From a virus, in IMG/VR virus record IMGVR_UViG_3300008219_000041, positions 1 to 36,436 of that record: DNA of 36,436 nucleotides; one strand, given 5' to 3'. Position numbers and translations under genes: made by a program. Shown here one piece after another: positions 423 through 36,436 of this stretch (positions within the stretch are counted from its first letter, which is position 1; every line of letters starts with the position of its first letter). The notes beneath the pieces were generated by a model, which was not told the origin of the DNA, ran no database searches, and was given only the letters and a program-made list of their open reading frames with translations.

Positions 423-477
423 TTCTGATCACTAGGTATTGGTAACCTAGTCTGAATGAGTAACCACGAAATCAGAA
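423..477 (+). ncRNA. Hammerhead ribozyme, type III, with an extra A in the core
   Basis: Stem III pairs TTCTGAT (423-429) with ATCAGAA (471-477), 7 bp. The predicted cleavage nucleotide is C430. Stem I pairs ACTAGGT (431-437) with ACCTAGT (445-451). The core reads CTGAATGA (452-459), one A more than the consensus CTGATGA. Stem II is minimal (G460-C467, possibly also U461-A466), and GAA follows at 468-470. Everything except the inserted A fits the consensus, so activity is uncertain. It lies 30 nt upstream of the first gene of the operon. Confidence 0.65.
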
Positions 478-507
478 TTAACCAACTCAAAATAAGGAGA
501 AACTATT

Positions 508-867
508 ATGAGTAAATTAGAAAAAATAAAATCACAAATTGAAACCAACATTTACAACTTTTTGAATGCTGAAGAAAAAAGCGATAAAGAATGGTCAGAG
601 AAACATGGTTTTTCATGTTCTTTCAAAAGATCAGATTATGACTATCTGGTTAGAATCAATGAAGATGAAAATGCTGTATCAATTACATTTGATGGCGGTA
701 TGTTCTATGAATTGATCAATACACACTTTGTATCAACTGGTAAGGGTGCTGAAGATTACATAGAAGAATCTTGGTTCTGTAGTGATACAGCAGAAGAAAT
801 ATTTGGTCTATCCAAATATCATTGGGAAATTTGGAACAAAGTTTCAATAGATGTTTTTGCCAATTAA
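508..867 (+). CDS. Hypothetical protein, first gene of the left operon (119 aa)
   Basis: I do not recognise this acidic protein of 119 residues. It has no membrane segment or signal peptide. The start is supported by AAGGAGA placed 9-10 nt upstream, in a leader that recurs before other genes of this operon (AATAAGGAGAAAnTATT then ATGAG). The N-terminal third is lysine/glutamate-rich and probably helical; the rest mixes beta-like stretches (YLVRINED, AVSITFDGG) and aromatic residues. It is preceded by a hairpin and a hammerhead-like RNA and followed by the first copy of an unclassified structured RNA (868-950). Function unknown. Confidence 0.8.
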   Translation: MSKLEKIKSQIETNIYNFLNAEEKSDKEWSEKHGFSCSFKRSDYDYLVRINEDENAVSITFDGGMFYELINTHFVSTGKGAEDYIEESWFCSDTAEEIFGLSKYHWEIWNKVSIDVFAN

Positions 868-950
868 CCCAACTGTCCTGAGCAAGACTAAAACTGCTCA
901 ACTCCCCATAAGTACATTTATTGTAAGTGTGCTTATTGGGAATTAATCCC
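868..950 (+). ncRNA. Unclassified structured RNA motif, copy 1
   Basis: This intergenic RNA shares sequence and fold with 1184-1270 and partly with 6719-6799. After AACCCAAC comes a small pairing GTC (875-877)/GAC (886-888) around CTGAGCAA. Alternatively TGAGCA (879-884) pairs with TGCTCA (895-900); the two pairings could coexist only as a pseudoknot. A second hairpin pairs CCC (904-906) with GGG (938-940) and, after a C/U mismatch, ATAAGTACA (908-916) with TGTGCTTAT (928-936). It ends in GGGAATTAATCCC. It occupies the same place as the hammerheads in other gaps but has no CTGATGA/GAAA core. Confidence 0.5.
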
Positions 951-979
951 AAAACATAATACAAACTGGAGAAAAAATT

Positions 980-1171
980 ATGCCAAAAACATATAAGAAA
1001 AAACTGTATAAACTTGAACACGAAACTGATGGTCTGTACTACGTAGCAAAACTTACACAAAATGAACTATATTATTTGTTAAAAATCGGATACGCATTAG
1101 TAGAAGAAATTTCTGGCAGATCACACGAACTGCATGTGTATTCCTATGGCGATTTGCGGTTGTTAAGATGA
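980..1171 (+). CDS. Hypothetical protein (63 aa)
   Basis: A small basic protein of 63 residues rich in tyrosine, leucine and lysine (many YY and LL pairs), with no clear transmembrane segment. I do not recognise the family. The start has TGGAG upstream at normal spacing, separated from the preceding gene by the structured RNA at 868-950. It ends in TGA at 1169-1171, 12 nt before the second copy of that motif. Its position between two copies of the motif suggests separately processed transcripts, but its function is unknown. Confidence 0.7.
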   Translation: MPKTYKKKLYKLEHETDGLYYVAKLTQNELYYLLKIGYALVEEISGRSHELHVYSYGDLRLLR

Positions 1172-1183
1172 ATGTGTCTGACA

Positions 1184-1270
1184 ATTAACCCAACAGTCCT
1201 GAGCAAGACTTACAAACTGCTTACTTCCCCTTAGATATATTCAATGAGTGTATCTAATGGGAATTAACCC
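1184..1270 (+). ncRNA. Unclassified structured RNA motif, copy 2
   Basis: Begins with the same AATTAACCCAAC as copy 1. AGTC (1195-1198) pairs with GACT (1207-1210) around CTGAGCAA; TGAGCA (1200-1205) can alternatively pair with TGCTTA (1218-1223), where a C-to-T change relative to copy 1 keeps pairing as G-U. The second hairpin has CCC (1227-1229)/GGG (1259-1261), a C/U mismatch, then TTAGATATA (1231-1239)/TGTATCTAA (1249-1257). The hairpin sequences differ from copy 1 but pairing and even the mismatch are kept, which supports a selected structure. Confidence 0.55.
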
Positions 1271-1296
1271 AAACTCAAAAATAAGGAGAGATTATT

Positions 1297-1431
1297 ATGA
1301 GTAAACCAAAAAGAAAAATAACCAATTATGAAAAAGCCAAAAGGGCTAAGTATCGTGGGAAACCTCATACTGTGACCATTGGCGATTTAGTGTTAGATAG
1401 TTTGCTTAGGCAACAACTAGCGAGATCATAA
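1297..1431 (+). CDS. Hypothetical small basic protein (44 aa)
   Basis: This 44-codon gene has a strong Shine-Dalgarno (AATAAGGAGAG) and the operon's usual ATTATTATGAG start context. The product is very basic in its first half (MSKPKRKITNYEKAKRAKYR) and more hydrophobic at its end (GDLVLDSLLRQQL). Its TAA stop (1429-1431) overlaps the ATG of the next gene by one base, implying translational coupling. A nucleic-acid-binding role would fit the charge but is only inference. Confidence 0.7.
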   Translation: MSKPKRKITNYEKAKRAKYRGKPHTVTIGDLVLDSLLRQQLARS

Positions 1432-1658
1432 TGGTTAAATCAAAAGTATTCACATTAAAAAAATATGATGGCAATGCTTTCATCTTAGATGATGGAATAT
1501 TGTTGACTACTGCTTTATGGGAAGATGAATCAAGAACACCACCTTATGACGATGAAAATTGGGGTGAAGTGGATATTGAAGCATTTGAAACCGATGAGGA
1601 ATATCGAGAGATATACGAATTGGCGAATGACCCAAAAGAAAGAATCATAATAGAGTGA
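1431..1658 (+). CDS. Hypothetical acidic protein (75 aa)
   Basis: A strongly acidic protein of 75 residues (clusters such as DDENWGEVDIEAFETDEEYRE) with no membrane segment. I do not recognise it. Its ATG overlaps the stop codon of the preceding basic 44-aa gene by one base and has no separate strong ribosome-binding site, so the two are probably translated together; a basic/acidic pair could interact, which is inference. It is followed by a palindrome copy and a type III hammerhead. Confidence 0.7.
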   Translation: MVKSKVFTLKKYDGNAFILDDGILLTTALWEDESRTPPYDDENWGEVDIEAFETDEEYREIYELANDPKERIIIE

Positions 1659-1663
1659 ATAAA

Positions 1664-1701
1664 AAAGGGTTGAATATTGACCAGTCAATATTTGACCCTT
1701 T
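1664..1701 (+). terminator. Extended hairpin built on palindrome copy 1
   Basis: The 20-bp palindrome at 1673-1692 is flanked by AAAGGGT (1664-1670) and ACCCTTT (1695-1701), separated from it by TG on both sides. The RNA can form a long hairpin of 7 bp, a small internal mismatch and 8-9 bp. It lies 5 nt after the stop of the 75-aa gene and 15 nt before the hammerhead, so it takes the place of the 3' hairpins seen before the other type III ribozymes. Confidence 0.55.
1673..1692. promoter_or_regulatory. Dispersed palindrome, copy 1 (perfect arms)
   Basis: AATATTGACCAGTCAATATT. Both 9-bp arms are perfect around a central CA on the + strand, which is also the transcribed direction here. It is one of 11 copies in the window. 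Confidence 0.75.
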
Positions 1702-1732
1702 CTGTCTCTGGAATTTTTCTGTCTCTGGAATT
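1699..1732 (+). repeat. 17-bp tandem duplication covering the ribozyme cleavage strand
   Basis: TTTCTGTCTCTGGAATT occurs at 1699-1715 and again, perfectly and immediately adjacent, at 1716-1732. Each copy holds the 5' strand of hammerhead stem III, the GTC cleavage triplet and the 5' strand of stem I. Only the second copy is in the right place to fold simply with the core at 1740-1776, but the first could pair by slippage. Confidence 0.8.
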
Positions 1733-1776
1733 AACCAGACTGATGAGCATCCTGTAATGGGATATGCGAAACAGAA
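1717..1776 (+). ncRNA. Hammerhead ribozyme, type III, canonical core
   Basis: Stem III pairs TTCTGT (1717-1722) with ACAGAA (1771-1776). The cleavage triplet is GTC with predicted cleavage after C1723. Stem I pairs TCTGG (1724-1728) with CCAGA (1735-1739). The core is CTGATGA (1740-1746). Stem II starts with the canonical G1747-C1767 and pairs GCAT with ATGC (1764-1767), with a further CC/GG pairing and a bulge. GAA follows at 1768-1770. All conserved core positions are present. Cleavage would put the core on the 5' leader of the gene at 1799. Confidence 0.85.
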
Positions 1777-1798
1777 TCTTTTAAATAAGGAGAAAATT

Positions 1799-2377
1799 AT
1801 GAGAAAGATAACAAAAGAAAGTTCAAAAGCATTTGTGAATTTTGAGCCATATAAAAATGACAATACTAAAGTAGAATGGTCTTATTCAGTATGTCATTCA
1901 AGGACATGGGGTTTCATTAGGGGTGAAAGAGTCGCTAAATTTTATCTTCATGGAAATCTAATAGCTGAGATTTCTCAGACTGGACATTTGTGTGAAGATA
2001 AAGACCATAAATCTGGAAATTTATTTCAAGAGATTGATTATCAAACTGTGAAGATTGATCTATGCGGTTGGCATACACCAACTACTAGAGAAAGAATCAA
2101 TGGTGTTCTTGATGCATTGGGTTATGACTTTAGAATTGCTCAGAGAAATGAGGAGCAAGTTTTAGTTAGAAATGCTGATCTTGATGAAGAATTGCACATG
2201 ATGGAAACTTGGAAACCGAAGAAACATAACGAACAAATAATAAAATTATCAGATGATAGTTTTAATCCAGATATTGTTCAAAAGGTATTCGACTCTAAGT
2301 TCTTTCGTACTCCAAGATTAGATGCTGATGGATACTTGGAAACTGGCATTGATCTAAATGCAATCACAGACTTTTAA
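1799..2377 (+). CDS. Conserved-type phage protein of unknown function (192 aa)
   Basis: The frame is open from 1655, but the start at 1799 is chosen because AATAAGGAGA lies just upstream, whereas an earlier start would run through the palindrome and the ribozyme. The product has a central GWHTPTTRERIN stretch (about residues 88-99) that I associate with small phage proteins sharing a GGW-T-TT-R-N signature near early genes; that resemblance is from memory. No membrane segment, metal-binding cluster or catalytic motif is evident. A hairpin at 2391-2410 and a type III hammerhead follow the stop codon. Confidence 0.75.
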   Translation: MRKITKESSKAFVNFEPYKNDNTKVEWSYSVCHSRTWGFIRGERVAKFYLHGNLIAEISQTGHLCEDKDHKSGNLFQEIDYQTVKIDLCGWHTPTTRERINGVLDALGYDFRIAQRNEEQVLVRNADLDEELHMMETWKPKKHNEQIIKLSDDSFNPDIVQKVFDSKFFRTPRLDADGYLETGIDLNAITDF

Positions 2378-2390
2378 CTTTCAACCAAAA

Positions 2391-2410
2391 GGGGAATCGA
2401 AAGATTCCCC
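2391..2410 (+). terminator. GNRA-capped hairpin after the 192-aa gene
   Basis: GGGGAATC (2391-2398), GAAA tetraloop (2399-2402), GATTCCCC (2403-2410): 8 perfect pairs with a GNRA loop and no following T run. The first base of the next ribozyme follows immediately (2411), so after cleavage the upstream mRNA would end 8 nt beyond this hairpin. Confidence 0.65.
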
Positions 2411-2464
2411 TTGCTGTATAGGAATGTAGTTCCTACTGATGATTCGGAAACGATGAAACAGCAA
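2411..2464 (+). ncRNA. Hammerhead ribozyme, type III, U-U base of stem II
   Basis: Stem III pairs TTGCTGT (2411-2417) with ACAGCAA (2458-2464), 7 perfect pairs. The predicted cleavage nucleotide is A2418. Stem I pairs TAGGAA (2419-2424) with TTCCTA (2430-2435). The core is CTGATGA (2436-2442). Stem II is TCG (2444-2446)/CGA (2451-2453) capped by GAAA, with U2443 and U2454 facing each other where most hammerheads have G-C. GAA is at 2455-2457. The same U-U pattern recurs at 4051-4109 and 7034-7091. Confidence 0.8.
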
Positions 2465-2493
2465 TATTAATTTACAAATATAGGAGAAAAATT

Positions 2494-3582
2494 ATGAGTA
2501 AATTAAAACCAAGTGAGTTAGTGGAAGTGATCTTACACAATTTGCAGAACGCAACTAATAGCGTGCCTTTCATAAAAGGAAGTCCAGCTATTGGTAAATC
2601 TGCTTTAGTGTTTGAGATTGCTCAGACTCTAGCTGATGAATCCAAACTAAAACTGGTCAGGGATTACAAAGGTCGACCCAAATATAATGTTAAACCAAAA
2701 AAGAATGAATTTGGTTTTGCAGACTTTAGGGTTGCCATGTATGAAACGATTGATTTTTCTGGACTACCATATATCGATGATAAAACTGGCAGTCAGAAAA
2801 GAGCATTACTGGACAATCTGCCTACAGATAAAAACAGTAAAGGTCTTTTGTTTTTGGATGAAGTCGCTCAAGCAAATGCATCACTACAAAATACGATCCG
2901 ACAATTAACTTTTGAGGGTCGTATTGGTACTGATTATATTTTGCCTAAAGGTTGGAAAATTGTCCTAGCGGGTAATCATTCAACTGACAGGGCGGGTGCT
3001 CAAAGGATATTGACCCATTTTCAATCTGCTTGTTTAACTCTGGACTTAGTTCCAGATACTAAAGAGTGGTTGGATTGGGCATATCAAAATGATATTAATG
3101 CAGACATTCTTGCATTTCTATCATTCCAGCCTCAATTTTTACATCAATTCGATGCTAAGAAAGAGGGTGGTTTCCCAGCACCTAGAACATGGCATCAAGT
3201 GAGCGAGATGTTGGATGGGGATTTGAGAAAATCCTTAGTCCAGCCAGTCTTGGAATCTTATCTAGGCGAAACAGTAGCCAGAGAGTTTGAAACTTTCTGT
3301 GCTTTCCAAAATGATTTGGAATCGCCTACTAAAATTCTAAAGAGTCCAAAGAAAGCAAAACTACCTGAGAAAACAGAATTGCAATACGCGAGTGTTGCCT
3401 CTTTGATCAGTGCGGTTGAAACTCCAAAGGACTTTGAAAATGCTCTGACTTATGTAGAGCGTTTCGATGCTCAAGAGTTCGCAGTTTTGTTTGTCAAAGC
3501 GCTCACTACAAAGGAATCAAAATTAAAAGAGACATCAGTCTTTATTGATTGGCACATTAAAAACCAAGATATCTTGGTCTAA
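2494..3582 (+). CDS. MoxR-like AAA+ ATPase (362 aa)
   Basis: The protein has a Walker A motif GSPAIGKS (residues 29-36), a Walker B motif LLFLDE (118-123) and a sensor-1 asparagine in AGNHSTDRAG (N161), the pattern of MoxR/AAA_5 ATPases. Such proteins act as ATP-driven remodelling chaperones, usually with a VWA-domain partner. That partner is present downstream (5268-6656), with a DUF3150-like gene between them (4144-5136). The start has ATAGGAGAAAAATT directly upstream. Length is typical. The substrate in infected cells is unknown; insertion of metal or remodelling of a host complex are only possibilities. Confidence 0.85.
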   Translation: MSKLKPSELVEVILHNLQNATNSVPFIKGSPAIGKSALVFEIAQTLADESKLKLVRDYKGRPKYNVKPKKNEFGFADFRVAMYETIDFSGLPYIDDKTGSQKRALLDNLPTDKNSKGLLFLDEVAQANASLQNTIRQLTFEGRIGTDYILPKGWKIVLAGNHSTDRAGAQRILTHFQSACLTLDLVPDTKEWLDWAYQNDINADILAFLSFQPQFLHQFDAKKEGGFPAPRTWHQVSEMLDGDLRKSLVQPVLESYLGETVAREFETFCAFQNDLESPTKILKSPKKAKLPEKTELQYASVASLISAVETPKDFENALTYVERFDAQEFAVLFVKALTTKESKLKETSVFIDWHIKNQDILV

Positions 3583-3604
3583 ATAATCTAATCAAAAATT
3601 GATG

Positions 3605-3675
3605 CACAATGGCACTACCTAGAGATAGGGGATAAGGGTCTTTTTGATTTCTCCTATACCTTATTCGCCATTGTG
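3605..3675 (+). terminator. Long hairpin after the AAA+ gene
   Basis: CACAATGGC (3605-3613) pairs perfectly with GCCATTGTG (3667-3675). Inside, a run of T (3641-3645) and further pairing between the GGGGATAAGG and CCTTATTC segments are possible. Its last two bases also belong to stem III of the next ribozyme, so complete formation of both helices is mutually exclusive at 3674-3675. Confidence 0.6.
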
Positions 3676-3731
3676 TAATCCTTGTATGACATTAGTAGTC
3701 ATGCCTGATGAGTTACTTCGAAAGGATTACA
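3674..3731 (+). ncRNA. Hammerhead ribozyme, type III, one-base-pair stem II
   Basis: Stem III pairs TGTAATCCT (3674-3682) with AGGATTACA (3723-3731), 9 pairs. The predicted cleavage nucleotide is U3683. Stem I pairs GTATGAC (3684-3690) with GTCATGC (3698-3704), 7 pairs including one G-U. The core is CTGATGA (3705-3711). Stem II is only G3712-C3719 with loop TTACTT. GAA is at 3720-3722. All conserved core bases and the G-C at the base of stem II are present; the very short stem II resembles minimal hammerhead designs. Confidence 0.8.
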
Positions 3732-3774
3732 ATTCAGTTAATTAATTTTTAATCGTAAATAAGGAGAAATTATT

Positions 3775-4050
3775 ATGTATTTAGATTATAGAGAAAGAAG
3801 AAGGTACGCAGAAAATCTTGGTAAAAAATGGCGACAACAAGTTAAGAACAGTAGCGATATTGTTTTTGGAAGCACAGATGCTTCTACAGTCATATTTGCA
3901 GTAAAGGATTACATTGATTTTTTGGAATCTAAGAAAGAAGATTTAGATTGGATGATTCGAGATAGAAAAAAATCTATTGATGAAACTATAGGGTATGAAA
4001 AAGAGTTTATTAAGAGAATCCAAGACGACCCTGATTACTTAAAATCTTAA
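3775..4050 (+). CDS. Hypothetical protein, helical (91 aa)
   Basis: A charged, probably alpha-helical protein of 91 residues with arginine/lysine-rich ends (DYRERRRYAENLGKKWRQQ; MIRDRKKSIDETIGYEKE) and a predicted coiled-coil-like second half. No recognised family. AAGGAGAAATTATT precedes the ATG. Its stop codon (4048-4050) is immediately followed by the first base of a type I hammerhead, so a separate 3' hairpin is absent. It sits inside the AAA+/DUF3150-like/VWA block, which may indicate an accessory role; that is inference. Confidence 0.75.
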   Translation: MYLDYRERRRYAENLGKKWRQQVKNSSDIVFGSTDASTVIFAVKDYIDFLESKKEDLDWMIRDRKKSIDETIGYEKEFIKRIQDDPDYLKS

Positions 4051-4109
4051 ACCAACTGATGATTAGCTGAGATGCTATGAAACTGGATAAGAGATTATCC
4101 AGTATTGGT
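4051..4109 (+). ncRNA. Hammerhead ribozyme, type I
   Basis: Stem I pairs ACCAA (4051-4055) with TTGGT (4105-4109). The core is CTGATGA (4056-4062). Stem II pairs TAGC (4064-4067) with GCTA (4074-4077), with U4063 facing U4078. GAA is at 4079-4081. Stem III is a 9-bp hairpin, ACTGGATAA (4082-4090), GAGA, TTATCCAGT (4095-4103). The predicted cleavage nucleotide is A4104. It begins on the base after the stop codon of the 91-aa gene. Cleavage would leave the folded core on that mRNA's 3' end and a 39-nt leader on the next gene. Confidence 0.85.
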
Positions 4110-4143
4110 AATTAAACCAACTCAAAAATAAGGAGAAATTATT

Positions 4144-5136
4144 ATGAGTAAAAAGAAAACTAGCGACAAGAAAACAGCATTAGCAGAATCTTGCGTTAAG
4201 GTTCAAGTCACTATAAAAACTTATAGTGGGATAAAGGCAGACACCAAAGCCAGAAATGAATTAGCAGATATTAAAGATGCTAATCAAGAATTGGTTAGGG
4301 TATCTAAACATTTATTAAAAGAGAAGCGTCTTAAACAGCCTATTAAAATCAAAGGTAGGTTTAGGAATCAGGTTATGTATAAACATACTCTGCCTTGGAT
4401 TGATGCTGATGATCAAGCTTTAGGTGGTGGGAAGTCCTATGTCTCTTATGACCGACAGGTTAAAAAGGGCGAATGGAGAATCCTACCCGCCAAAAAACTT
4501 GAATGGTTTGAAGAACAGGTAAAGATGTTCCAAAAGGAATTTAATGATGCTGTTCAGAAAGTCATAGATGGTTATTCGGATGCGATTGAAGAAATGAAAG
4601 CAAAAGAAACTGGTCTAGGCGATCTGTTCAATGAATCAGATTATCTTAGTGCTGATGAATTGAAAGCAAGATACATCTTTGATCATGAAATCGGGATAAT
4701 AAATGAGTTCAATGCTGATGATATTAGAGTATCAATATCGGAAGATGTTAAATCTAATATTATTGCTACTGCTCAAGAAAGAAACAAGGGAGTGCAGAAA
4801 AATGCCGACAGGATTACTGCCAAGAAACTGGTTTCCAGTATTGAAAGACTGGCAAATGCATTGGAAAGCTATGATCCAAAAGAACCATCTAAACATCCAT
4901 TGAGAGATGGTAGCTACAATGATCTTAGAGAAATGTTGGAAACAATAGATGATTATCTATTGAGTGATGATGATGATCTAAAATCAACTGTTGATGATCT
5001 GCGAAAGGACATTGTGAAAGCAAAATCCCAAAGCAATCTCAAGAAGGATGATAAAACTAGAAAATCCACAGCCAAGAAACTTAGGAAAGCTGAAAAGCAA
5101 GTCAAAGTTTCTGACACTGCTAAAGGATTATTTTAG
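4144..5136 (+). CDS. DUF3150-like protein (330 aa)
   Basis: A long, charged, largely alpha-helical protein with a basic lysine-rich C-terminus (about residues 285-325). The middle holds a conserved-looking aromatic/acidic stretch (HTLPWIDADDQALGGGKSY, about 81-99) and helical segments around 120-160. The composition, size and position between a MoxR-type ATPase and a VWA protein match DUF3150 proteins, which accompany this pair in bacteria and phages; the assignment rests mainly on context. The start has AATAAGGAGAAATTATT upstream. Likely role: adaptor or substrate of the ATPase/VWA machine, as inference. Confidence 0.7.
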   Translation: MSKKKTSDKKTALAESCVKVQVTIKTYSGIKADTKARNELADIKDANQELVRVSKHLLKEKRLKQPIKIKGRFRNQVMYKHTLPWIDADDQALGGGKSYVSYDRQVKKGEWRILPAKKLEWFEEQVKMFQKEFNDAVQKVIDGYSDAIEEMKAKETGLGDLFNESDYLSADELKARYIFDHEIGIINEFNADDIRVSISEDVKSNIIATAQERNKGVQKNADRITAKKLVSSIERLANALESYDPKEPSKHPLRDGSYNDLREMLETIDDYLLSDDDDLKSTVDDLRKDIVKAKSQSNLKKDDKTRKSTAKKLRKAEKQVKVSDTAKGLF

Positions 5137-5145
5137 TCTGGATAT

Positions 5146-5165
5146 GGGGAGTCGCAAGACTCCCC
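5146..5165 (+). terminator. GNRA-capped hairpin after the DUF3150-like gene
   Basis: GGGGAGTC (5146-5153), GCAA (5154-5157), GACTCCCC (5158-5165): 8 perfect pairs with a GNRA loop. No T run follows. Unlike the other gaps of this operon, no hammerhead core follows before the next gene. Confidence 0.6.
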
Positions 5166-5192
5166 TAATCCTAGAGTGTTTAATTGAAAGCA

Positions 5193-5212
5193 AGTATTGA
5201 CCAGTCAATATT
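5193..5212. promoter_or_regulatory. Dispersed palindrome, copy 2
   Basis: AGTATTGACCAGTCAATATT, one mismatch to the consensus in the left arm; the CA centre is on the + strand. It lies in the gap before the VWA gene. Confidence 0.7.
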
Positions 5213-5220
5213 TGTTTTCA

Positions 5221-5239
5221 TGTGAACATTCTGTTCACA
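5221..5239. other. 8-bp inverted repeat before the VWA gene
   Basis: TGTGAACA (5221-5228), TTC, TGTTCACA (5232-5239). A perfect inverted repeat 28 bp upstream of the start codon at 5268. It could be an operator or an mRNA hairpin; the sequence does not decide. Confidence 0.5.
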
Positions 5240-5267
5240 AAATTTGTTTATATATAGGAGAAAAATT

Positions 5268-6656
5268 ATGGATAAACAAACAACTGCCAGTAAAGTGGCA
5301 GAACATAAAATCGTCAAGGCTAGAACCTCGATCATCCAAGAAGGAAGATTGGGTATGGCATCGATGATTACTCCTCTGATTCTGAAAGAAGTTTCAGAAG
5401 GGGTCTGTTCTACAATGGCAACTGATGGTAATCATATCTTTTGGTGTGAATCCTTTGTCAATGAATCGAGTCATGAAGAATTAAAATTCGTTTTAATGCA
5501 TGAAGCGTTACATTGTACTTGGGCGCACCATTTAAGAAGAAATGGTAGAGACCCAAAGCTATGGAATATCGCAACTGATTATGCAATCAATGGCGAGTTA
5601 CATAGATCAAGGGCGATATCATATTGGGAAATGCCAGAAGATGCTTTGTACGACAGCAAATATGATGGCAAAACTGCTGATGAAATCTACGCTATATTGT
5701 CAAGGGAACAAGAAGAAAAACAAAAGGGTAGTTCTGATGGTAAATCTGATGAACAGTCCGATGATGATTCTTCTGATTCTCAAGGCAATAGTGGAGACAG
5801 TAAAGATGGTGATGATTTAGCTAATGCTAATGAAGGTAAACCATCTGATACTTCTCAAGCTGGTGGGGTTTGGGATGCAGTGAACCAAGATGGAAAACCA
5901 TTAACCGAAAAAGAAAAGATTGATGCTCAAAGAGATTTGGCTAACAAAGTCAGATTGGCTGACAGCATGAGTCGATCTTGCGGTGATGGTTATGACAACT
6001 CATTCAATCGAAGGGTTAATGAGATTGATGTGGAAACTGCCAACTATCTTGAGAAAATTCAAGATTGGTTGGTTAGTGTATATCCCGATCAAACATCTTG
6101 GAATAGACCTCATAGAAACCATATCTGGAAAGACAAAACTTATAAGAAAGGAAACTATCTTCCGAGTAGAGTCAGTTCAGCTATGGGTGGCACTTTGGCA
6201 ATTGGTGTTGATGTATCTTATTCAACTCTTTATTACATGGATGGATTCATGGAACAAATACAGGGGTTGGTTGAGCAATGCAACATTGAGAAAGTCAAAG
6301 TTTGTTGGTGTAGCACTATACTTCACCATGACGAAGATGGTAATTATTGGGATGAAATCGATATCTCTGCTGGTGAGTCTTTATCAGACTTGACACCTAG
6401 AGGTAGCGGTGGGACTCGATTAACTCCGATCTTTGAATATGTGAATAAGCACACCGATGATGTTGCCGATCTACAGGGTCTTATTGTTTTTACTGATGGA
6501 GAATTTTGTCCAGTAAAAGCAAAAGATGAACCCGATATACCAGTCCTATGGGCTACAACTGATGATAAAGAAGAAGGCATTGTTGAGCGCGAGTTTGGGG
6601 AAGTAATCCATTTACCTCCCCATTGCTTACAAGCTGATTTAGATTTAGCTGTTTAG
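5268..6656 (+). CDS. Metallopeptidase/VWA-like protein, DUF2201-type (462 aa)
   Basis: The start is the ATG after ATATAGGAGAAAAATT. The N-terminal domain has a zinc-protease-like HEALH (residues 78-82) followed by HH (87-88) and WNIATDYAIN (99-108), as in putative metallopeptidase domains fused to VWA-like domains. A low-complexity Ser/Asp/Gly linker covers about 150-200. The C-terminal domain has a MIDAS-like DVSYS (315-319), GGT (381-383) and FTDGE (D410), typical of von Willebrand A folds. Such proteins work with MoxR ATPases, here encoded at 2494-3582. Whether the peptidase site is active or only binds metal is unknown. Confidence 0.85.
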   Translation: MDKQTTASKVAEHKIVKARTSIIQEGRLGMASMITPLILKEVSEGVCSTMATDGNHIFWCESFVNESSHEELKFVLMHEALHCTWAHHLRRNGRDPKLWNIATDYAINGELHRSRAISYWEMPEDALYDSKYDGKTADEIYAILSREQEEKQKGSSDGKSDEQSDDDSSDSQGNSGDSKDGDDLANANEGKPSDTSQAGGVWDAVNQDGKPLTEKEKIDAQRDLANKVRLADSMSRSCGDGYDNSFNRRVNEIDVETANYLEKIQDWLVSVYPDQTSWNRPHRNHIWKDKTYKKGNYLPSRVSSAMGGTLAIGVDVSYSTLYYMDGFMEQIQGLVEQCNIEKVKVCWCSTILHHDEDGNYWDEIDISAGESLSDLTPRGSGGTRLTPIFEYVNKHTDDVADLQGLIVFTDGEFCPVKAKDEPDIPVLWATTDDKEEGIVEREFGEVIHLPPHCLQADLDLAV

Positions 6657-6660
6657 GATT

Positions 6661-6721
6661 GGTGCAAAAAGGGGGGTTTTAAGGGTATAACATACCCTTA
6701 CTACCCTCCTAACTTTGCATC
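6661..6721 (+). terminator. Large branched hairpin after the VWA gene
   Basis: GGTGCAAA (6661-6668) pairs with TTTGCATC (6714-6721); inside, GGGGGG (6671-6676) pairs with CCCTCC (6704-6709) and TAAGGGTAT (6680-6688) with ATACCCTTA (6692-6700) around AAC. It begins 5 nt after the stop codon. Its 3' strand overlaps the beginning of RNA motif copy 3, so the two may compete. Confidence 0.6.
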
Positions 6722-6799
6722 CTGAGCGATCTGAGAGGGTCGATTTTAGAGAGATTCCCATTAATAACATCATTTGGTGTTATTAATGGGAATTATCCC
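6719..6799 (+). ncRNA. Unclassified structured RNA motif, divergent copy 3
   Basis: Shares the TCCTGAGC start (6720-6727), the CCC...GGG hairpin and the GGGAATTATCCCAAAACATAAT end with copies 1 and 2. ATC/GAT (6719-6721, 6728-6730) replaces GTC/GAC around CTGAGC. An alternative longer hairpin pairs CTGAG (6722-6726) with TTTAG (6745-6749) and CGATC (6727-6731) with GGTCG (6738-6742). The second hairpin is a perfect 15 bp, ATTCCCATTAATAAC (6754-6768) with GTTATTAATGGGAAT (6779-6793). The start codon of the next gene is 22 nt beyond the motif. Confidence 0.45.
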
Positions 6800-6821
6800 A
6801 AAACATAATAGGAGAAAAATT

Positions 6822-7049
6822 ATGAAACTAACCAAAAAAGAGTTAGATGAAATAAAAGGTAATGTTCAAATAAGTCTAAATAGGACTGGTGTCTATGCAC
6901 ACTACTCACAACCTGTGCTGAATAAAGATGGCTCAGTTAGGAAAAATAGCGGATTCACTTATGAGGACATTGAAAAAGCAAAAGTGAGATACGCCTTTTT
7001 AGAGGGTTTATTAACTAAGTTAAACAAAATAGAACCAACTGATGATTAG
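6822..7049 (+). CDS. Hypothetical protein whose stop codon lies in a ribozyme (75 aa)
   Basis: A small charged protein of 75 residues without a recognised family. The ATG at 6822 follows AATAGGAGAAAAATT; the frame is open further upstream (6774), but that start would lie in the structured RNA. The last codons, reading EPTDD then TAG (7047-7049), are also the 5' strand of stem I, the CTGATGA core and the start of stem II of a type I hammerhead (7034-7091), so protein C-terminus and RNA core are encoded by the same bases. Confidence 0.75.
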   Translation: MKLTKKELDEIKGNVQISLNRTGVYAHYSQPVLNKDGSVRKNSGFTYEDIEKAKVRYAFLEGLLTKLNKIEPTDD

Positions 7050-7091
7050 GTGAAATTCCTATGAAAGCCAATCGCAAGATTGGCTATTGGT
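7034..7091 (+). ncRNA. Hammerhead ribozyme, type I, overlapping a stop codon
   Basis: Stem I pairs ACCAA (7034-7038) with TTGGT (7087-7091). The core is CTGATGA (7039-7045). Stem II pairs TAGG (7047-7050) with CCTA (7058-7061), with U7046 facing U7062. GAA is at 7063-7065. Stem III pairs AGCCAATC (7066-7073) with GATTGGCT (7078-7085) around a GCAA tetraloop. The predicted cleavage nucleotide is A7086. Its 5' 16 nt are identical to those of the hammerhead at 4051, while stems II and III differ in sequence but keep pairing, which is strong comparative support. Confidence 0.85.
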
Positions 7092-7109
7092 GCTAACAAT
7101 TCTGTTAGC
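7092..7109 (+). other. Short hairpin downstream of the type I ribozyme
   Basis: GCTAAC (7092-7097), AATTCT, GTTAGC (7104-7109): 6 perfect pairs. After cleavage at A7086 it would lie at the very 5' end of the mRNA for the gene at 7143, and may protect that end. Confidence 0.5.
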
Positions 7110-7142: not shown

Positions 7143-7376
7143 ATGAATGAACAAATAATCCATTATCTATTGATTGCTATTGCAACAATGGGAGCGATTA
7201 CAATTCCTTTTGCCATTAATGCAATAAGGCAACTTCATAACTGGAATACTAAGTCAGTTATTATTGTCTTAGGGCTGGCATTTGTGTTGGTTAATTGTCT
7301 CTTTGTAGCGGTGGTTGGTTATGCATTTATTTTTGATGCATGGCACTTGACCATCAAGGAGGTTATCAATGGGTAG
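7143..7376 (+). CDS. Small membrane protein with two transmembrane segments (77 aa)
   Basis: Two hydrophobic helices are visible, about residues 7-27 (HYLLIAIATMGAITIPFAIN) and about 38-63 (SVIIVLGLAFVLVNCLFVAVVG), joined by a short basic loop (RQLHNWNTKS). This is the layout of an inner-membrane hairpin protein; a holin-like role cannot be excluded, but the position in an early-type operon argues against lysis. The start has ATAGGAGAAGAAATT upstream. The 3' end overlaps the next gene by 8 nt. Confidence 0.75.
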   Translation: MNEQIIHYLLIAIATMGAITIPFAINAIRQLHNWNTKSVIIVLGLAFVLVNCLFVAVVGYAFIFDAWHLTIKEVING

Positions 7377-8013
7377 TGTTGATAAATTAAAGATCAAAGA
7401 AGAAAACATCCACAAGTTCAAAGACTATCTTGACGATGACAAAATTCCAAACTGGAGTTTTGGATTTGCCACCAGTCTATTTGAACAGTTTAAAAAGAAA
7501 GGTTATCTTTCTGATAAACAGTGGTTTCATGTTCATAAATTCATTGATCAAATAGAGAACCCACCACCGCCTCCGAAACCAGAAGATAAACTACCTAATA
7601 TAAATGGTGTTTATTCTCTGATGAAAAGGGCGATGTCTGCAAAAAGTAAATCGTTTCCTAAACTCTGGCTGAAACTTAATGACTCCGATTTAAAAATATC
7701 GAGAGCCACCAATAAGTCAAAGCATAGAGGACAACTATTTCTCAGCAATGGGGAATGGGGAAATGAAAATATTTACTTTGGGCGGATCGATACCAATGGC
7801 GATCTTTACTTAGTAGCTAATGGCAAAAAAGTAAAAGATGAATTGATTAATCTATTAACTAGATTAGTTAATGATCCTGAAAAGGTTGCGAGTGAATATG
7901 GAAAACTCACTGGTAACTGCTTTGCCTGTCATAGACAACTGACCGATGACCGATCTATTGAAGTAGGTTATGGGAAAGTTTGTGCTGATAAGTTCGGATT
8001 GAATTGGGGATAA
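7369..8013 (+). CDS. Protein with C-terminal zinc-binding DUF6011-like domain (214 aa)
   Basis: The ATG is preceded by AAGGAGG inside the end of the membrane-protein gene, so the two are coupled. After a helical N-terminus comes a proline run (PPPPPKPEDK, about 66-75), then a beta-rich middle domain (about 80-170). The C-terminus has CFACHRQL (two Cys, one His) and GYGKVCADKFG (third Cys), the treble-clef-like pattern G-C-x2-C-x-R-x-L...G-x-G-x2-C found in DUF6011-type tails of phage proteins. Zinc binding is likely; the target is unknown. It is the last gene before the terminator at 8152-8204. Confidence 0.75.
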   Translation: MGSVDKLKIKEENIHKFKDYLDDDKIPNWSFGFATSLFEQFKKKGYLSDKQWFHVHKFIDQIENPPPPPKPEDKLPNINGVYSLMKRAMSAKSKSFPKLWLKLNDSDLKISRATNKSKHRGQLFLSNGEWGNENIYFGRIDTNGDLYLVANGKKVKDELINLLTRLVNDPEKVASEYGKLTGNCFACHRQLTDDRSIEVGYGKVCADKFGLNWG

Positions 8014-8151: not shown

Positions 8152-8204
8152 GACCTCACTGGTCTGTATCTTTTTAGATATGGGCTAGTGGGGTCTTTTT
8201 TTTT
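8152..8204 (+). terminator. Rho-independent terminator of the left operon
   Basis: GACCTCACT (8152-8160) pairs with AGTGGGGTC (8187-8195). An inner stem pairs TGTATCT (8165-8171) with AGATATG (8176-8182). Nine T follow directly (8196-8204). This is the clearest intrinsic terminator in the window and marks the end of the ribozyme-bearing operon, 138 nt after its last stop codon. Confidence 0.85.
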
Positions 8205-26329: not shown

Positions 26330-26782
26330 TTACTCCTGTATTCTAACTTCAAAAAAGGTGGCGTGTTTTTTCCACCCTATATTTTTAATCCAATTCCAAA
26401 AACCCTTTCTGCCAATTCCTTCTATGCCATCGTAACCATTTTTTTTGCAAAAATTAATTAACATTTCTAATCCATCATCCATCCATCTGTTCATATCACT
26501 GCCTGATATATGGTCTATATGCAACATTCTTAAATCTGTAGGATATTCTTTTAAAAAAGTAACAATACAACCTATAATTTTAAGAGTAGATGTATCATAA
26601 ACTATCCAGATTTGACATCTACCAGAGTCAACATCTCTATAAACATCATCAATAGTAACCCGACCACCGCTTCTTTTAACTGATCTTCTTAATAGTTTTG
26701 CACACTCATCCCAACAATTGTCTAATATTTCTGGGTGTACCATTGACCACTCTAACTCATATTTTAAAGCAGGCTCGTTCAT
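26330..26782 (-). CDS. GNAT-like phage protein (150 aa)
   Basis: The protein has a strand-helix arrangement with [20 protein letters not shown] (about residues 54-73), [20 protein letters not shown] (about 85-104) and [20 protein letters not shown] (about 114-133). This matches phage proteins with a GNAT acetyltransferase-like fold that lie among tail genes; an acetyl-CoA-binding loop is not clear, so the enzyme may be degenerate. It overlaps the collagen-like gene by 4 nt, showing coupled translation. Confidence 0.65.
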
Positions 26783-29295
26783 GCGGGCAATACTCTTCTA
26801 CTATCTATAGGTGGCGCTTGTTCTATTGTGCCTGTCTTCGCCATCCGAGTTCTCTCTAGCATTCCATCCAACTTTCTTGAGCCTTCAGTAGAATTGCCAT
26901 CCCCTAATTGAGAGACAACATCGGCTGGCACTATATATTCACCGGGTGATGCGGCTATTCTATCTTGATTGCCAGCAACCCCTTGAACAAAGTCATCCAT
27001 ACCACCGCCAAATCCTTCTATCATTCCTTGAGTTTGTGCTCCACCATCAGGATTTAATACCTGTTCTCTTAAAGCCATAAATGCTTCTTGTCCATATAAT
27101 CCAATAAACTGATTAATAATGGCATCGGCTGTTGCTTGATCTGGAGCCATCCCTTGAATAGTCATTATGGTAGCTTCTATCAATTGTTGATTGCCTTCTG
27201 TCATCTCAGCATCATCTCCTAACCCAGCAATTCCTTCTCCTTCTTGATATCGAATCAATCCGCCCTTTGCAAAGCCTAGAGGTCTATCGCTTGGACCAAG
27301 CATTGGATTGTAAGGATCATAAGACTGTTGGCTTGCAGCAATTAATGCTTCAAGCTCTGAAGGATCAATAGACTCTCCAGCCGCCCCTGTTAAACCTATA
27401 TCTCCTTGTAAACCCTGCATTCCTTGAAGCCCTTGTGCTCCGGTAGCTCCCATAGCTCCCATAGCACCTGTCGCTCCAGTTAGTCCTTGAAGCCCTTGGA
27501 GTCCTTGTAATCCTTGAAGCCCTTGTAAACCTTGTGCGCCGGCAGCTCCTGTTAGTCCTGTGGCTCCCATAGCACCTGTTAAGCCTTGCTCTCCTTGAAT
27601 GCCTTGGAGTCCTTGAGCACCTGCGGCACCTGTTAAGCCTTGCATTCCTTGTGCCCCTATAGCTCCAGCTAGTCCTTGCATTCCTTGGAGACCTTGGAGA
27701 CCTTGCATTCCTTGGAGTCCCTGTAGTCCCTGTAGTCCCTGTGGTCCACGCAAGCGAGGATCATTTTGAATCGCTGATTCCAATGCTTCCCCAGTCATAT
27801 AGTTACTAAGATCAGGAGCTTGATACGATGGCATTATTCCTTGAATGTCCTCTAAACTTGGACCACCATAACCAAGACCACCTATCTGTTGTTGTAGATT
27901 TTCAAATTGCGAAGAATAATCAGGCGTTTGATAACTAGGCATTATTCCCTGTATGTCTTCCAAACTAGGTCCGCCATAACCCATGCCTCCTATCTGTTGC
28001 TGTAAATTCTCGAATTGCTGATTATAATCAGGCATCTCAAAACTAGGAGTCTGTAATCCACCTATTTGTTCTCCTAATCCACCAAGACTTCCTTGTAAGC
28101 TCTCGAATTGCTGAGAGTAATCTGGCATCTGGAATGACGGCATATTTCCTATCTGTTGTCCTAGACCGCCTAGACCAGTTTGTAGGTTTTCAAATTGTTG
28201 TGTGTAATCTGGCATATTAATTTTACCTGCCAAAAGATCGTAATTAATTTCTGGAGCTTTAAATTCAGGAGCCTGAAAATTCTGGAATCTATTTTGTAAT
28301 CCACCTAAACCAGTTTCTATCCCTGCCAATCTTTCGCTTAAATCACTATAATCTGGCATTTCAAAAGCAGGTTGACTGGGAAGATTAATCTTGCTAGCCA
28401 GAAGATCATAGTCTATTTCTGGCATTGTTGGCTGTGCTATCTGAGGCATTTCCGGTTGTTGCACAGAAGGGGTTGAGGGTTGAGAAAAACCTAAGCCTGA
28501 TAAATCTAAATTGGATAAATCAAAATTAGAAAAATCTAAATTTTCAACCCCAGCTAAAGCATTACCAAAATTTGGTAAGTTAGCAGGAGTTGTAATGCCA
28601 TAAGGATATTGACCCATTGTTGTTGCAGGCGGATTTGAATTAGGAAAATAATTCCATTCAGGATCAATGCCCGGTCTGTAACCGGGTGGTGGAGCAACAG
28701 GAGTTCTTGCTGCTGTCGGTACTATATTTTGATTTCCCATATTGTTCATTGGGTTGTTGTATATTGGATTATTACCACCACTTCTATTAGGTCCGCCAGT
28801 TCTCCCATAATTTGGATTAAAAGGATTGTTGGTAACGCTTCCTATTCCAGCGCCACTTCCCGCAGTTCTAACATCTGATTCAGGAATATATGAATAAGGC
28901 TGAGGCTCATCAGGAAGATAAGAATAAGGATCATTAAAATATGGAGAGGCATATGGGTCTGGCGGCATCAAAGTATTGCCTATACCAAAGGACTCTGGAG
29001 GAGGTTGTCCTAAATTTGGATCAAAAGTTGGTAGTGTACCGACACTAGGTGGTTGAATCATAGGTGGCGGGGGCGGGGTAATTGGAGGTAAATCTGTTCC
29101 GAACAATTCTGGTTGACCAATAGTTTCTGGATCAGCAACAAATTGTGGAGGCATATATGTGCCGGGAGCAGGTATATTAAAACGAGGGTTATCTCCTTCA
29201 AAGCGTGGTTGTTCCTCTATCCACTCTCTATCAGGTCTTCTTGTTACTCTCGGAGTAGGAGTTTTAACACCTGTTGTTTTAGGTCGTGCTGCCAT
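26779..29295 (-). CDS. Collagen-like virion protein, probable tail fibre or decoration (838 aa)
   Basis: The N-terminal 220 residues are Pro/Asn/Gly-rich. Residues about 270-500 hold repeats built around [12 protein letters not shown] and GGLGQQIG, including two near-identical blocks with [16 protein letters not shown]. Residues about 515-635 are uninterrupted Gly-X-Y triplets dominated by GLQ, GMQ and GAA/GAT with almost no proline. The C-terminal domain carries [10 protein letters not shown] and [19 protein letters not shown], the latter familiar from marine phage structural proteins. Likely a trimeric fibre or spike. Codon-level repeats suggest expansion by slippage or recombination. Confidence 0.75.
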
Positions 29296-35127: not shown

Positions 35128-36436
35128 CTATACTGTATATACGTCCAAGGCATCAGCCTTGCCTTTAACTTTAATTGTTGATATTAAGTTTAACTTAAAT
35201 TTTGTAAATTGAGCAGTGCTTTCTCCTATAAGAAGATCAACACCCACCTCTTTAGTTGCCGATTCAAGTCGTGCTGCCGTGTTTACCGCATCGCCAATAG
35301 CTGTATAGTCAAACCGACTATCACTACCCATATTACCAATTACTGCCTCACCTGAATTAATGCCAATACCTATGGCTACTGGTGGTAAGTCTTTACCTTT
35401 AAGCTCTTTGTTTAGCTCTTCCATGTTTTTCATAATGTCTAATGCACAGTCAATTGCTAAGTTTTCATGGGCAGGCTGGTCTAAAGGCGCATTAAATATT
35501 GCCATCATTGCATCGCCTATGTATTTATCAACCATACCTTCGTATTTTTGTACCGATTCTTGTTGTGCTGTCAAAGCTCTATTCATAATGTAGGTGACAT
35601 CTTCTGGCGGTAACGACTCAGACATAGAGGTAAACCCTCTAACATCGGTAAACAAATAGGTTGCGTATCTTTTTTCGCCACCTAATTTAAGCAGCTCTGG
35701 GTTATCTTGTAATTTTTTAACTTGTCTAGGATCAAGATAATGTTCAAATTGCTTTTTAATCTGCTGTCTGAGCTTGTACTGCTCTCTAAAATTCAAGTAA
35801 AACGCAATAGACCCTGTAATAAAACCAGCTATTAACGACCAAGTAACATCGATTAATAAATTAGACTGGATAAAATAAACGCCCAAATATGCGATTAGAG
35901 CGTTTGTAAGCAAAAAGAATACCAAACCCCATGTGACACCAAAGAAGTTTAGAAAAAACCAAACCAGAACCGTTGTCGATAGATATATACCTAACTCAGC
36001 GAGCAAAGCATAATCAGGAATTAATGGGCTGTCTTCTATTAAAATGCTTTCAGACAACGCTGTTTGTATTTTGTGTGGTTCTAAAAGACCCGCAGGCGTT
36101 GCTATTTGAGGCATAACCCCTTTTGCTGTGACACCGACAAACACAAAACGATTTTTAATAAGCTCTGTGCTTTTAATCTCTGTTAGAGAAAATTCAGGTG
36201 TGTTGACCCAACTGATCCATTTTCTGCCCAAGGTATCGGTCTTAACTGGCGGCAATCCCTTAACTCTAATCTCTTGTATACCTGCTTCTGAAGTTTTTAT
36301 TAGGTAGGTGTCCGCACCAGTTAAAACTTTTAGAACCTCTGTGCCGTAGGCAGAAACCCATCCGTCAGGGGTTCTTAGTAATAATGGCATACGCCTAACT
36401 AATTGGTCAACTTCTGTGGGAGCTACTGCTATGCCC
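35128..36436 (-). CDS. CHASE2 domain class III adenylate cyclase, 5' end outside the window
   Basis: The frame runs through the right edge; a Met at 36390 lies inside the CHASE2 domain (VDQLVRRMPLLLRTPDG spans it), so the true start is beyond the window. Numbering from that Met: CHASE2 sensor part to about 125, transmembrane helices about 127-150, 152-175 and 180-200, then the cyclase domain from about 238. The metal aspartates D249 (FTDVRGF) and D293 (KYIGDAMM), the adenine-specifying K289 and D361 (FDYT), and the N370/R374 pair (NTAAR) are all present, so an active, ATP-specific enzyme is expected. Seven nt separate it from the holin-like gene. Confidence 0.9.
   Translation of the reverse strand, partial: GIAVAPTEVDQLVRRMPLLLRTPDGWVSAYGTEVLKVLTGADTYLIKTSEAGIQEIRVKGLPPVKTDTLGRKWISWVNTPEFSLTEIKSTELIKNRFVFVGVTAKGVMPQIATPAGLLEPHKIQTALSESILIEDSPLIPDYALLAELGIYLSTTVLVWFFLNFFGVTWGLVFFLLTNALIAYLGVYFIQSNLLIDVTWSLIAGFITGSIAFYLNFREQYKLRQQIKKQFEHYLDPRQVKKLQDNPELLKLGGEKRYATYLFTDVRGFTSMSESLPPEDVTYIMNRALTAQQESVQKYEGMVDKYIGDAMMAIFNAPLDQPAHENLAIDCALDIMKNMEELNKELKGKDLPPVAIGIGINSGEAVIGNMGSDSRFDYTAIGDAVNTAARLESATKEVGVDLLIGESTAQFTKFKLNLISTIKVKGKADALDVYTV

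Follow-up and report, generated by a model that had tools for sequence, protein, structure and literature searches.

The left part of the IMG/VR virus record IMGVR_UViG_3300008219_000041, which we analyzed whole (36,436 bases, the window in what follows), carries one plus-strand operon of about 12 genes, and the gaps between these genes hold a series of hammerhead ribozyme motifs. The operon comprises small genes of unknown function, a Kyano_Gp96-like gene, a MoxR-like AAA ATPase gene, a gene for a protein of 330 amino acids (aa), a DUF2201/VWA-like gene and a DUF6011 gene. Six hammerheads are found on its plus strand, four in the type III and two in the type I layout, and we number them HHR1 to HHR6 along the operon:

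423-477, + strand: HHR1, type III, variant core, predicted cut after C430, in the leader before the first gene
1717-1776, + strand: HHR2, type III, predicted cut after C1723, in the gap before the 1799-2377 gene; matches RF00008
2411-2464, + strand: HHR3, type III, predicted cut after A2418, in the gap before the MoxR-like ATPase gene; matches RF00008
3674-3731, + strand: HHR4, type III, predicted cut after U3683, minimal stem II
4051-4109, + strand: HHR5, type I, predicted cut after A4104, starts one base past the stop codon of the 3775-4050 gene
7034-7091, + strand: HHR6, type I, predicted cut after A7086, overlaps the stop codon of the 6822-7049 gene

Detection of the hammerheads

A sequence-only reading of this DNA had proposed six hammerheads in the gaps of one operon with a terminator at its end. 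A relaxed descriptor for all three hammerhead types, which permits a 1-nt insertion in the core, bulges in stem II and a short stem II, returned exactly these six elements at the coordinates proposed, with the same cleavage sites (after 430, 1723, 2418, 3683, 4104 and 7086), and found no further hammerhead on the minus strand or in the other 28 kb of the window. All six cuts are intergenic, yet the intergenic share of the operon span is only 19%. A strict descriptor, which demanded a perfect CUGANGA core and 2 bp or more in stem II and was run over both strands of the whole window, recovered four of the six, at 1717-1776, 2411-2464, 4051-4109 and 7031-7094. Twenty dinucleotide shuffles gave two matches over both strands, that is, an expectation of about 0.1 per window against the six observed (Poisson P ~1e-9), and 362 kb of strand of control DNA gave no match at a score of at least 25.

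Comparison with Rfam, which the sequence-only reading had named as a check, gives a divided answer. No element reaches a gathering score, but at a relaxed threshold two of the six match RF00008 (1716-1777 and 2411-2464, 38.1 bits, E=6.8e-5; gathering score 48.5). The gathering score is a curation cut-off and no defining property of a hammerhead. A type I covariance model built from relatives only, without the window sequence, finds 7034-7091 with E=2.8e-12 and 4051-4109 with E=1.2e-9. The RAGATH-1 hammerhead (RF03152) weakly resembles the type I elements of relatives L003 and L004 (E 0.03-0.24), but all its matches lie below its gathering score (25-34 vs 56.3) and the type I elements of the window are unmatched.

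HHR2 to HHR6 have a CUGANGA core, a GAA(A) strand and a UH cleavage site at a three-helix junction. HHR1 departs from this by one extra base after A6, giving the 8-nt core CUGAAUGA in place of CUGANGA, and its stem II has 2 bp. We file it as a hammerhead-like variant, whose homologs covary as hammerheads. In HHR4, stem II consists of one pair and then a U-U mismatch, and in both type I elements, HHR5 and HHR6, stem II opens with a U-U mismatch. Natural hammerheads with a stem II of 1-2 pairs and with U-U at 10.1-11.1 are known, and so is the insertion after A6 (A6a), which had low activity in another hammerhead (PMC3088659). We regard HHR4 as a real hammerhead, and HHR1 as real but perhaps slow. 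The sequence-only reading had passed over the 8-nt core of HHR1, the short stems II and the U-U mismatches.

A Watson-Crick complementarity of 4 nt between loop I and loop II is present in HHR1, HHR2 and HHR4 (AGUA/UACU in HHR4), together with one covarying pair; in this comparison among the type III elements it was not seen in HHR3. At 1701-1732, TTCTGTCTCTGGAATT occurs twice in tandem, which yields an upstream copy of the HHR2 substrate strand; this copy could be a decoy for HHR2.

Covariation and conservation in relatives

In the type I alignment, 95.6% of cells are paired and 12 of the 17 pairs have changes on both sides, and none of 500 shuffles is as high on either the pairing or the covariation score. 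Taken as one set, the type III elements aligned too poorly in MAFFT for pairs to be counted, and we used the alignable subset of the HHR1/HHR4 family instead. Here 11 of 19 pairs have changed on both sides while stems I and III are kept, one loop-loop pair switches from G-C to A-U, and loop I remains complementary to the loop of stem II (AUUGGUA with ACC, AUUAGUA with ACU). Helices I, II and III thus covary both in type I and in the HHR1/HHR4 type III family.

Relatives with an ATPase identity from 90% down to about 28% have hammerheads in this operon. Contigs whose ATPase is 86-90% and 68% identical to that of the window have hammerheads in the matching gaps. A distant group (L070, L073, L075, L076, L082 and L086; the ATPase of L075 is 34.5% identical) has up to five hammerheads in the same operon, and the most distant contigs (ATPase ~26-30% identical) have mostly one or two of type I upstream of the ATPase gene. 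Searched against whole records, the type I model matches 12 of 16, always near this operon; three of the four records without a match are distant ones, and the fourth, that of L008, has a type III element.

Five cultured phages have related ATPase regions, namely Vibrio phage VBP47, Pseudoalteromonas phage pYD6-A, Stenotrophomonas phage Philippe, Pseudomonas phage Zuri (all Schitoviridae) and Roseobacter phage CRP-7. These regions are compact, with no hammerhead in the operon, and therefore no close cultured model was found. Among ATPase relatives in bacterial genomes we found one distant locus only, in a metagenome-assembled genome, with no hammerheads there and so no pointer to a host. Phage Philippe has a type I hammerhead elsewhere (L068:9197-9256, model R2, E=5e-5), within a tRNA cluster where it precedes a tRNA-Cys gene, which makes it a ready test object in a cultured phage.

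In three relatives, the gap before the ATPase gene (L004:6346-6505, L005:6838-7000, L008:6855-7000) has a variant of HHR3 in which three successive hairpins replace stem II: CUGAUGA, CUGCGAAAGCAG, AACCUGUUUACAGGUU, GAYUC..GARUC, GAAA. The last of these hairpins shows a compensatory change.

The operon and the position of the hammerheads within it

The genes of the operon to which the hammerheads can be related, and the terminator that follows them, are:

508-867, + strand: first gene of the operon, 119 aa, unknown
1799-2377, + strand: Kyano_Gp96-like gene (PF23790, E=4e-9)
2494-3582, + strand: phage AAA ATPase gene, MoxR-like (phrog_1297, E=4e-70)
3775-4050, + strand: gene between HHR4 and HHR5, stop codon directly before HHR5
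4144-5136, + strand: gene for a 330-aa protein of unknown function, which stays beside the ATPase gene in relatives
5268-6656, + strand: DUF2201 metallopeptidase-like/VWA-like gene (PF13203, E=9e-27; PF09967, E=1e-8)
6822-7049, + strand: gene upstream of HHR6, stop codon overlapped by HHR6
7369-8013, + strand: DUF6011 gene, last of the operon
8152-8204, + strand: strong intrinsic terminator of the operon, 20 pairs, T9 tail (8152-8195 in the terminator scan)

The form of the terminator is kept in relatives with different stem sequences, and no strong plus-strand promoter is seen inside the operon. The genes from the leader (~380) to the terminator (~8200) appear to form one transcription unit.

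Counted over 51 distinct elements of the window and its relatives, the two hammerhead types occupy different positions. Type I elements start at the upstream stop codon (median distance 0 nt; at most 16 nt in 29 of 32), whereas type III elements mostly start 33-95 nt past it, with an intervening hairpin of -13 to -36 kcal/mol; the difference has P=2e-6, with the reservation that the relatives are not independent. For HHR2, the true distance is 58 nt, as the automatic call of open reading frames (ORFs) missed a gene that ends at 1658. The type-dependent position fits the cutting chemistry of either layout. Because the cut of a type I element is at its 3′ end, the stems of the ribozyme remain with the upstream RNA; a type III element is cut close to its 5′ end, and the upstream RNA has to obtain a hairpin from elsewhere. 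The hairpins upstream of the type III elements of the window, with the z-scores of the regions that they belong to, are:

382-413, + strand: strong hairpin just upstream of HHR1 (region to the cleavage site, z=-4.5)
1664-1701, + strand: hairpin after the stop codon, upstream of HHR2 (z=-3.7)
2389-2412, + strand: hairpin after the stop codon, upstream of HHR3 (z=-4.7)
3604-3676, + strand: large hairpin after the ATPase gene, upstream of HHR4 (z=-3.5)

Compared with shuffles, the upstream tails of all six cuts have much more structure (z from -3.5 to -4.7). On the other side of the cut, folding places a hairpin at the new 5′ end, or no more than 5 nt from it, in all six downstream products; in the product of HHR5, the strand that is set free, UUGGU, pairs with a downstream ACCAA.

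Gaps without hammerheads and the GGG hairpin

Four gaps of the operon have no hammerhead, and all four have long hairpins. Three of these are copies of one element, which we call the GGG hairpin: a conserved long hairpin followed by GGGAAUUA..CCC and adjoining the ribosome-binding site (RBS). The four gaps are:

900-953, + strand: GGG hairpin, copy 1
1223-1274, + strand: GGG hairpin, copy 2
6753-6803, + strand: GGG hairpin, copy 3, after the VWA gene
5137-5267, + strand: gap with neither hammerhead nor GGG hairpin (-52.8 kcal/mol, z=-8.3)

The last of them holds a GGGGAGUC hairpin and a long interrupted hairpin around TTGACCAGTCAA. This gap, after the 330-aa gene, and 6657-6720, after the VWA gene, are both very stable (gap z=-8.3 each) and are kept in relatives with changed stems.

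The GGG hairpin has 17 pairs, with two positions that are often mismatched. Six pairs have changed on both sides, and none of 500 shuffles reaches its covariation score. In the loci searched, its model matches only in gaps of this operon, in near relatives; weaker minus-strand matches are the same palindromic hairpins read in reverse. In a scan of a viral collection, 14 of 15 true GGG hairpins lie on a stretch with hammerheads, as opposed to none of eight chance pattern matches. No known Rfam family matches it at a relaxed threshold. We also considered whether the GGG hairpin is a non-circular permutation of the hammerhead (Eckert et al. 2023, PMC10085705), and rejected this, as it has no CUGANGA block and folds as a single long hairpin.

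Hammerhead and GGG hairpin take each other's place in homologous gaps. The leader gap has a hammerhead in the window and in L007, and a GGG hairpin in L002, L004, L005, L006 and L008. The gap after the ATPase gene has a hammerhead in the window and most relatives, and a GGG hairpin in L008 (8201-8254). After the VWA gene it is the other way around, with a GGG hairpin in the window and most relatives, and a hammerhead in L007 (11187-11246). Finally, the gap before the ATPase gene has a hammerhead in the window and a GGG hairpin in L075, near 2455-2505.

What might this second element do? It is an irregular double-stranded hairpin of at least 12 bp that is conserved as RNA, as one looks for in an RNase III site. 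In size and in its mismatches it is similar to RNase III sites of the T7 type, and we therefore propose that it is probably an RNase III-type processing site with the same job as the hammerheads, and that RNase III would cut it, perhaps just before GGGAAUUA.

Other features of the window

The region 1-420 upstream of the first gene is non-coding and well conserved, with a homologous region in L016, L006 and L008; it is possibly a structured leader or a separate RNA. The family of the 5268-6656 gene is named 'HNH endonuclease' in PHROG 1314 and in several phage records, and Pfam assigns it a DUF2201 metallopeptidase and a VWA-like domain; the HNH annotation of this family in phages looks wrong. 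The palindrome TTGAC[CT][AG]GTCAA has nine copies, at 1677, 5197, 8316, 8429, 10125, 11922, 16949, 19493 and 31866, mostly within the longer AATATTGACCAGTCAATATT. They lie in gaps, and once inside the primase-helicase gene, and are also found in relatives; two copies form hairpins of transcribed gaps. The palindrome is possibly an operator of a phage regulator. On the minus strand, the phage gene at 35128-36390 encodes the catalytic domain of an adenylate/guanylate cyclase (PF00211, E=3e-20) together with a weak CHASE2-like part, and 26779-29295 encodes a protein with collagen-like repeats (PF01391, E=3e-20). No end repeat was found in the 36,436-base record.

Relation to known systems

The sequence-only reading held that a series of hammerheads in one operon was not a described arrangement. 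In kind, it is: Perreault et al. (2011, PMC3088659) reported clustered hammerheads flanking genes in prophages and proposed a role in mRNA processing, with cleavage of such arrays in vitro and of one in E. coli. By their description, several hammerheads flanking genes of a phage operon, the six at 423-7091 fit such an array, probably carried on one transcript. As there, multiple hammerheads flank single genes or short blocks, and processing of a long transcript is the proposed function. The arrays tested there were tandem, the largest one reported being a triple, and here we find six, with types I and III mixed, in a position relative to stop codons and hairpins that depends on type, and in exchange with the GGG hairpin. 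What goes beyond the earlier work is the number of six in one operon, the mixing of permutations, the rule of placement and the exchange of ribozyme and hairpin. We found no report of a series this long, of type-dependent placement or of hairpin exchange in the literature searched, with most subscription journals and preprints outside the search.

Another parallel is the RNase III processing of phage T7 mRNA, in which the R1.1 site drives maturation and protection and a 12-bp stem suffices for sites of this type (PMC8708148). In both cases intergenic structures cut one phage transcript into protected mRNAs, as we read the operon, and the GGG hairpins are similarly built. Here, however, most cuts would be made by the RNA itself, with 5′-OH and 2′,3′-cyclic phosphate ends. 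A third comparison is with RiboJ, an insulator that is hammerhead-based. It raises the transcript level about twofold in E. coli (PMC6206723). Both RiboJ and HHR1 are self-cleaving ribozymes (HHR1 by prediction) in a 5′ untranslated region upstream of the RBS, and HHR1 can be seen as the natural counterpart in layout. They differ in that RiboJ is engineered and stands alone, whereas HHR1 is a variant-core ribozyme of a phage leader.

Proposed mechanism and alternatives

In our view the ribozymes most likely divide the polycistron, while it is being made, into mRNAs that are each stable separately. The operon would be read as one RNA, from the leader near 380 to the terminator near 8200, and each hammerhead would fold on emergence and cut itself, leaving the leader and single- or few-gene mRNAs. 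At a type I cut, the upstream mRNA would retain ribozyme stems II and III as its 3′ structure; at a type III cut, the separate strong hairpin upstream would become the 3′ end. The downstream mRNA would begin with a 5′-OH and a hairpin, be it stem I, the hairpin of the freed stem I strand or one just after. The outcome would be separate, exonuclease-resistant mRNAs made without protein, an equivalent of what RNase III does for T7 mRNAs, and where a homologous gap has a GGG hairpin, an RNase III-type site would have the same role. What we observe is that the ribozymes fold as hammerheads, that these folds are conserved while the sequence changes, where they are placed and that they are exchanged for the GGG hairpin; co-transcription, cleavage in the cell, stabilization of the products and cutting of the GGG hairpin by RNase III are what we infer. 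The sequence-only reading had proposed that a hammerhead series in the gaps of one operon cuts the polycistron into cistron-sized mRNAs. The series is well supported and such cutting is the best reading, but ribozymes alone would not separate all cistrons, with four gaps that have none.

Only tentatively would we go further, to a modular set of interchangeable intercistronic end-makers, with type I at the stop codon, type III behind a hairpin and the GGG hairpin swapping with them. Nearly every cistron would then be structured at its 3′ end and begin with a hairpin at its 5′ end, and the GGG hairpin would be an undescribed processing element, cut by RNase III or, less likely, by itself.

Several observations weigh against the proposed cutting into stable mRNAs. 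No promoter was located, and the operon is deduced from gene order, the terminator and the missing strong internal plus-strand promoters. The relatives that we counted are not independent. The placement has exceptions, as the type III element at L070:9950 starts 4 nt after a stop codon and three type I elements lie 53-239 nt from one (by our own ORF calls). Some type I products have only weak 5′ hairpins, of -0.7 to -1.7 kcal/mol. The A6a insertion of HHR1 is the one that gave low activity in another hammerhead. And the GGG hairpin might serve protein binding or translation instead of processing.

The same motifs admit other roles. The hammerheads might lower or time expression, with 5′-OH/cyclic-phosphate ends that mark the RNA for decay, or with cleavage rates that a ligand or translation adjusts; they would then be regulators and no neutral processing sites. 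An overlap with the upstream stop codon, as in HHR6 and several type I homologs, could let ribosomes compete with folding, and a perhaps slow HHR1 and four gaps without a hammerhead would also suit regulation. We nevertheless find this unlikely, because product ends that are structured on both sides fit protection better than decay, RiboJ increases rather than decreases the transcript level, and no conserved aptamer-like domain is seen attached to the ribozymes. Less probable again is a passenger status, with the ribozymes as pieces or leftovers of small mobile RNA or DNA elements that settle in gaps and are tolerated for being harmless there. Hammerheads are frequent in selfish elements (PMC3088659), and the gaps of this operon are long and vary between relatives. 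However, the elements differ in sequence and permutation, lie on the sense strand only and keep to one operon, we saw neither flanking repeats nor signs of insertion, and neither the start of 29 of 32 type I elements at stop codons nor the replacement by GGG hairpins in the same gaps is what passengers would lead one to expect.

Pairs of hammerheads could also release RNA that is joined into circles, either circular mRNAs or small circular RNAs: the 5′-OH and 2′,3′-cyclic phosphate ends are substrates of RtcB-type ligases, and HHR4 and HHR5 flank one short gene (3684-4104), so that a monomer could be released. But Perreault et al. detected no spliced or circular product when they looked for these in arrays of a similar kind, and the layout of RBS and hairpins suits linear mRNAs, which makes circles very improbable. 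Slighter still is the chance that the six are inactive hammerhead-like sequences that arose by accident. The lack of a match at an Rfam gathering score and the very short stem II of two elements would be expected of such sequences, but six elements against ~0.1 by shuffling, the covariation, the matches to a model that left the window out and the conservation in homologous gaps would not.

A review of 2017 still counted what hammerheads do in bacteria and phages among the unanswered questions (PMC6155905). For that question, this operon offers a specific and testable answer: the type predicts the position, both cut ends are structured, and an RNase III-type hairpin appears to replace the ribozymes. 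If this is true, phages would have repeatedly exchanged self-cutting RNA for another processing site, and hammerheads would be no curiosities but ordinary parts of mRNA processing.

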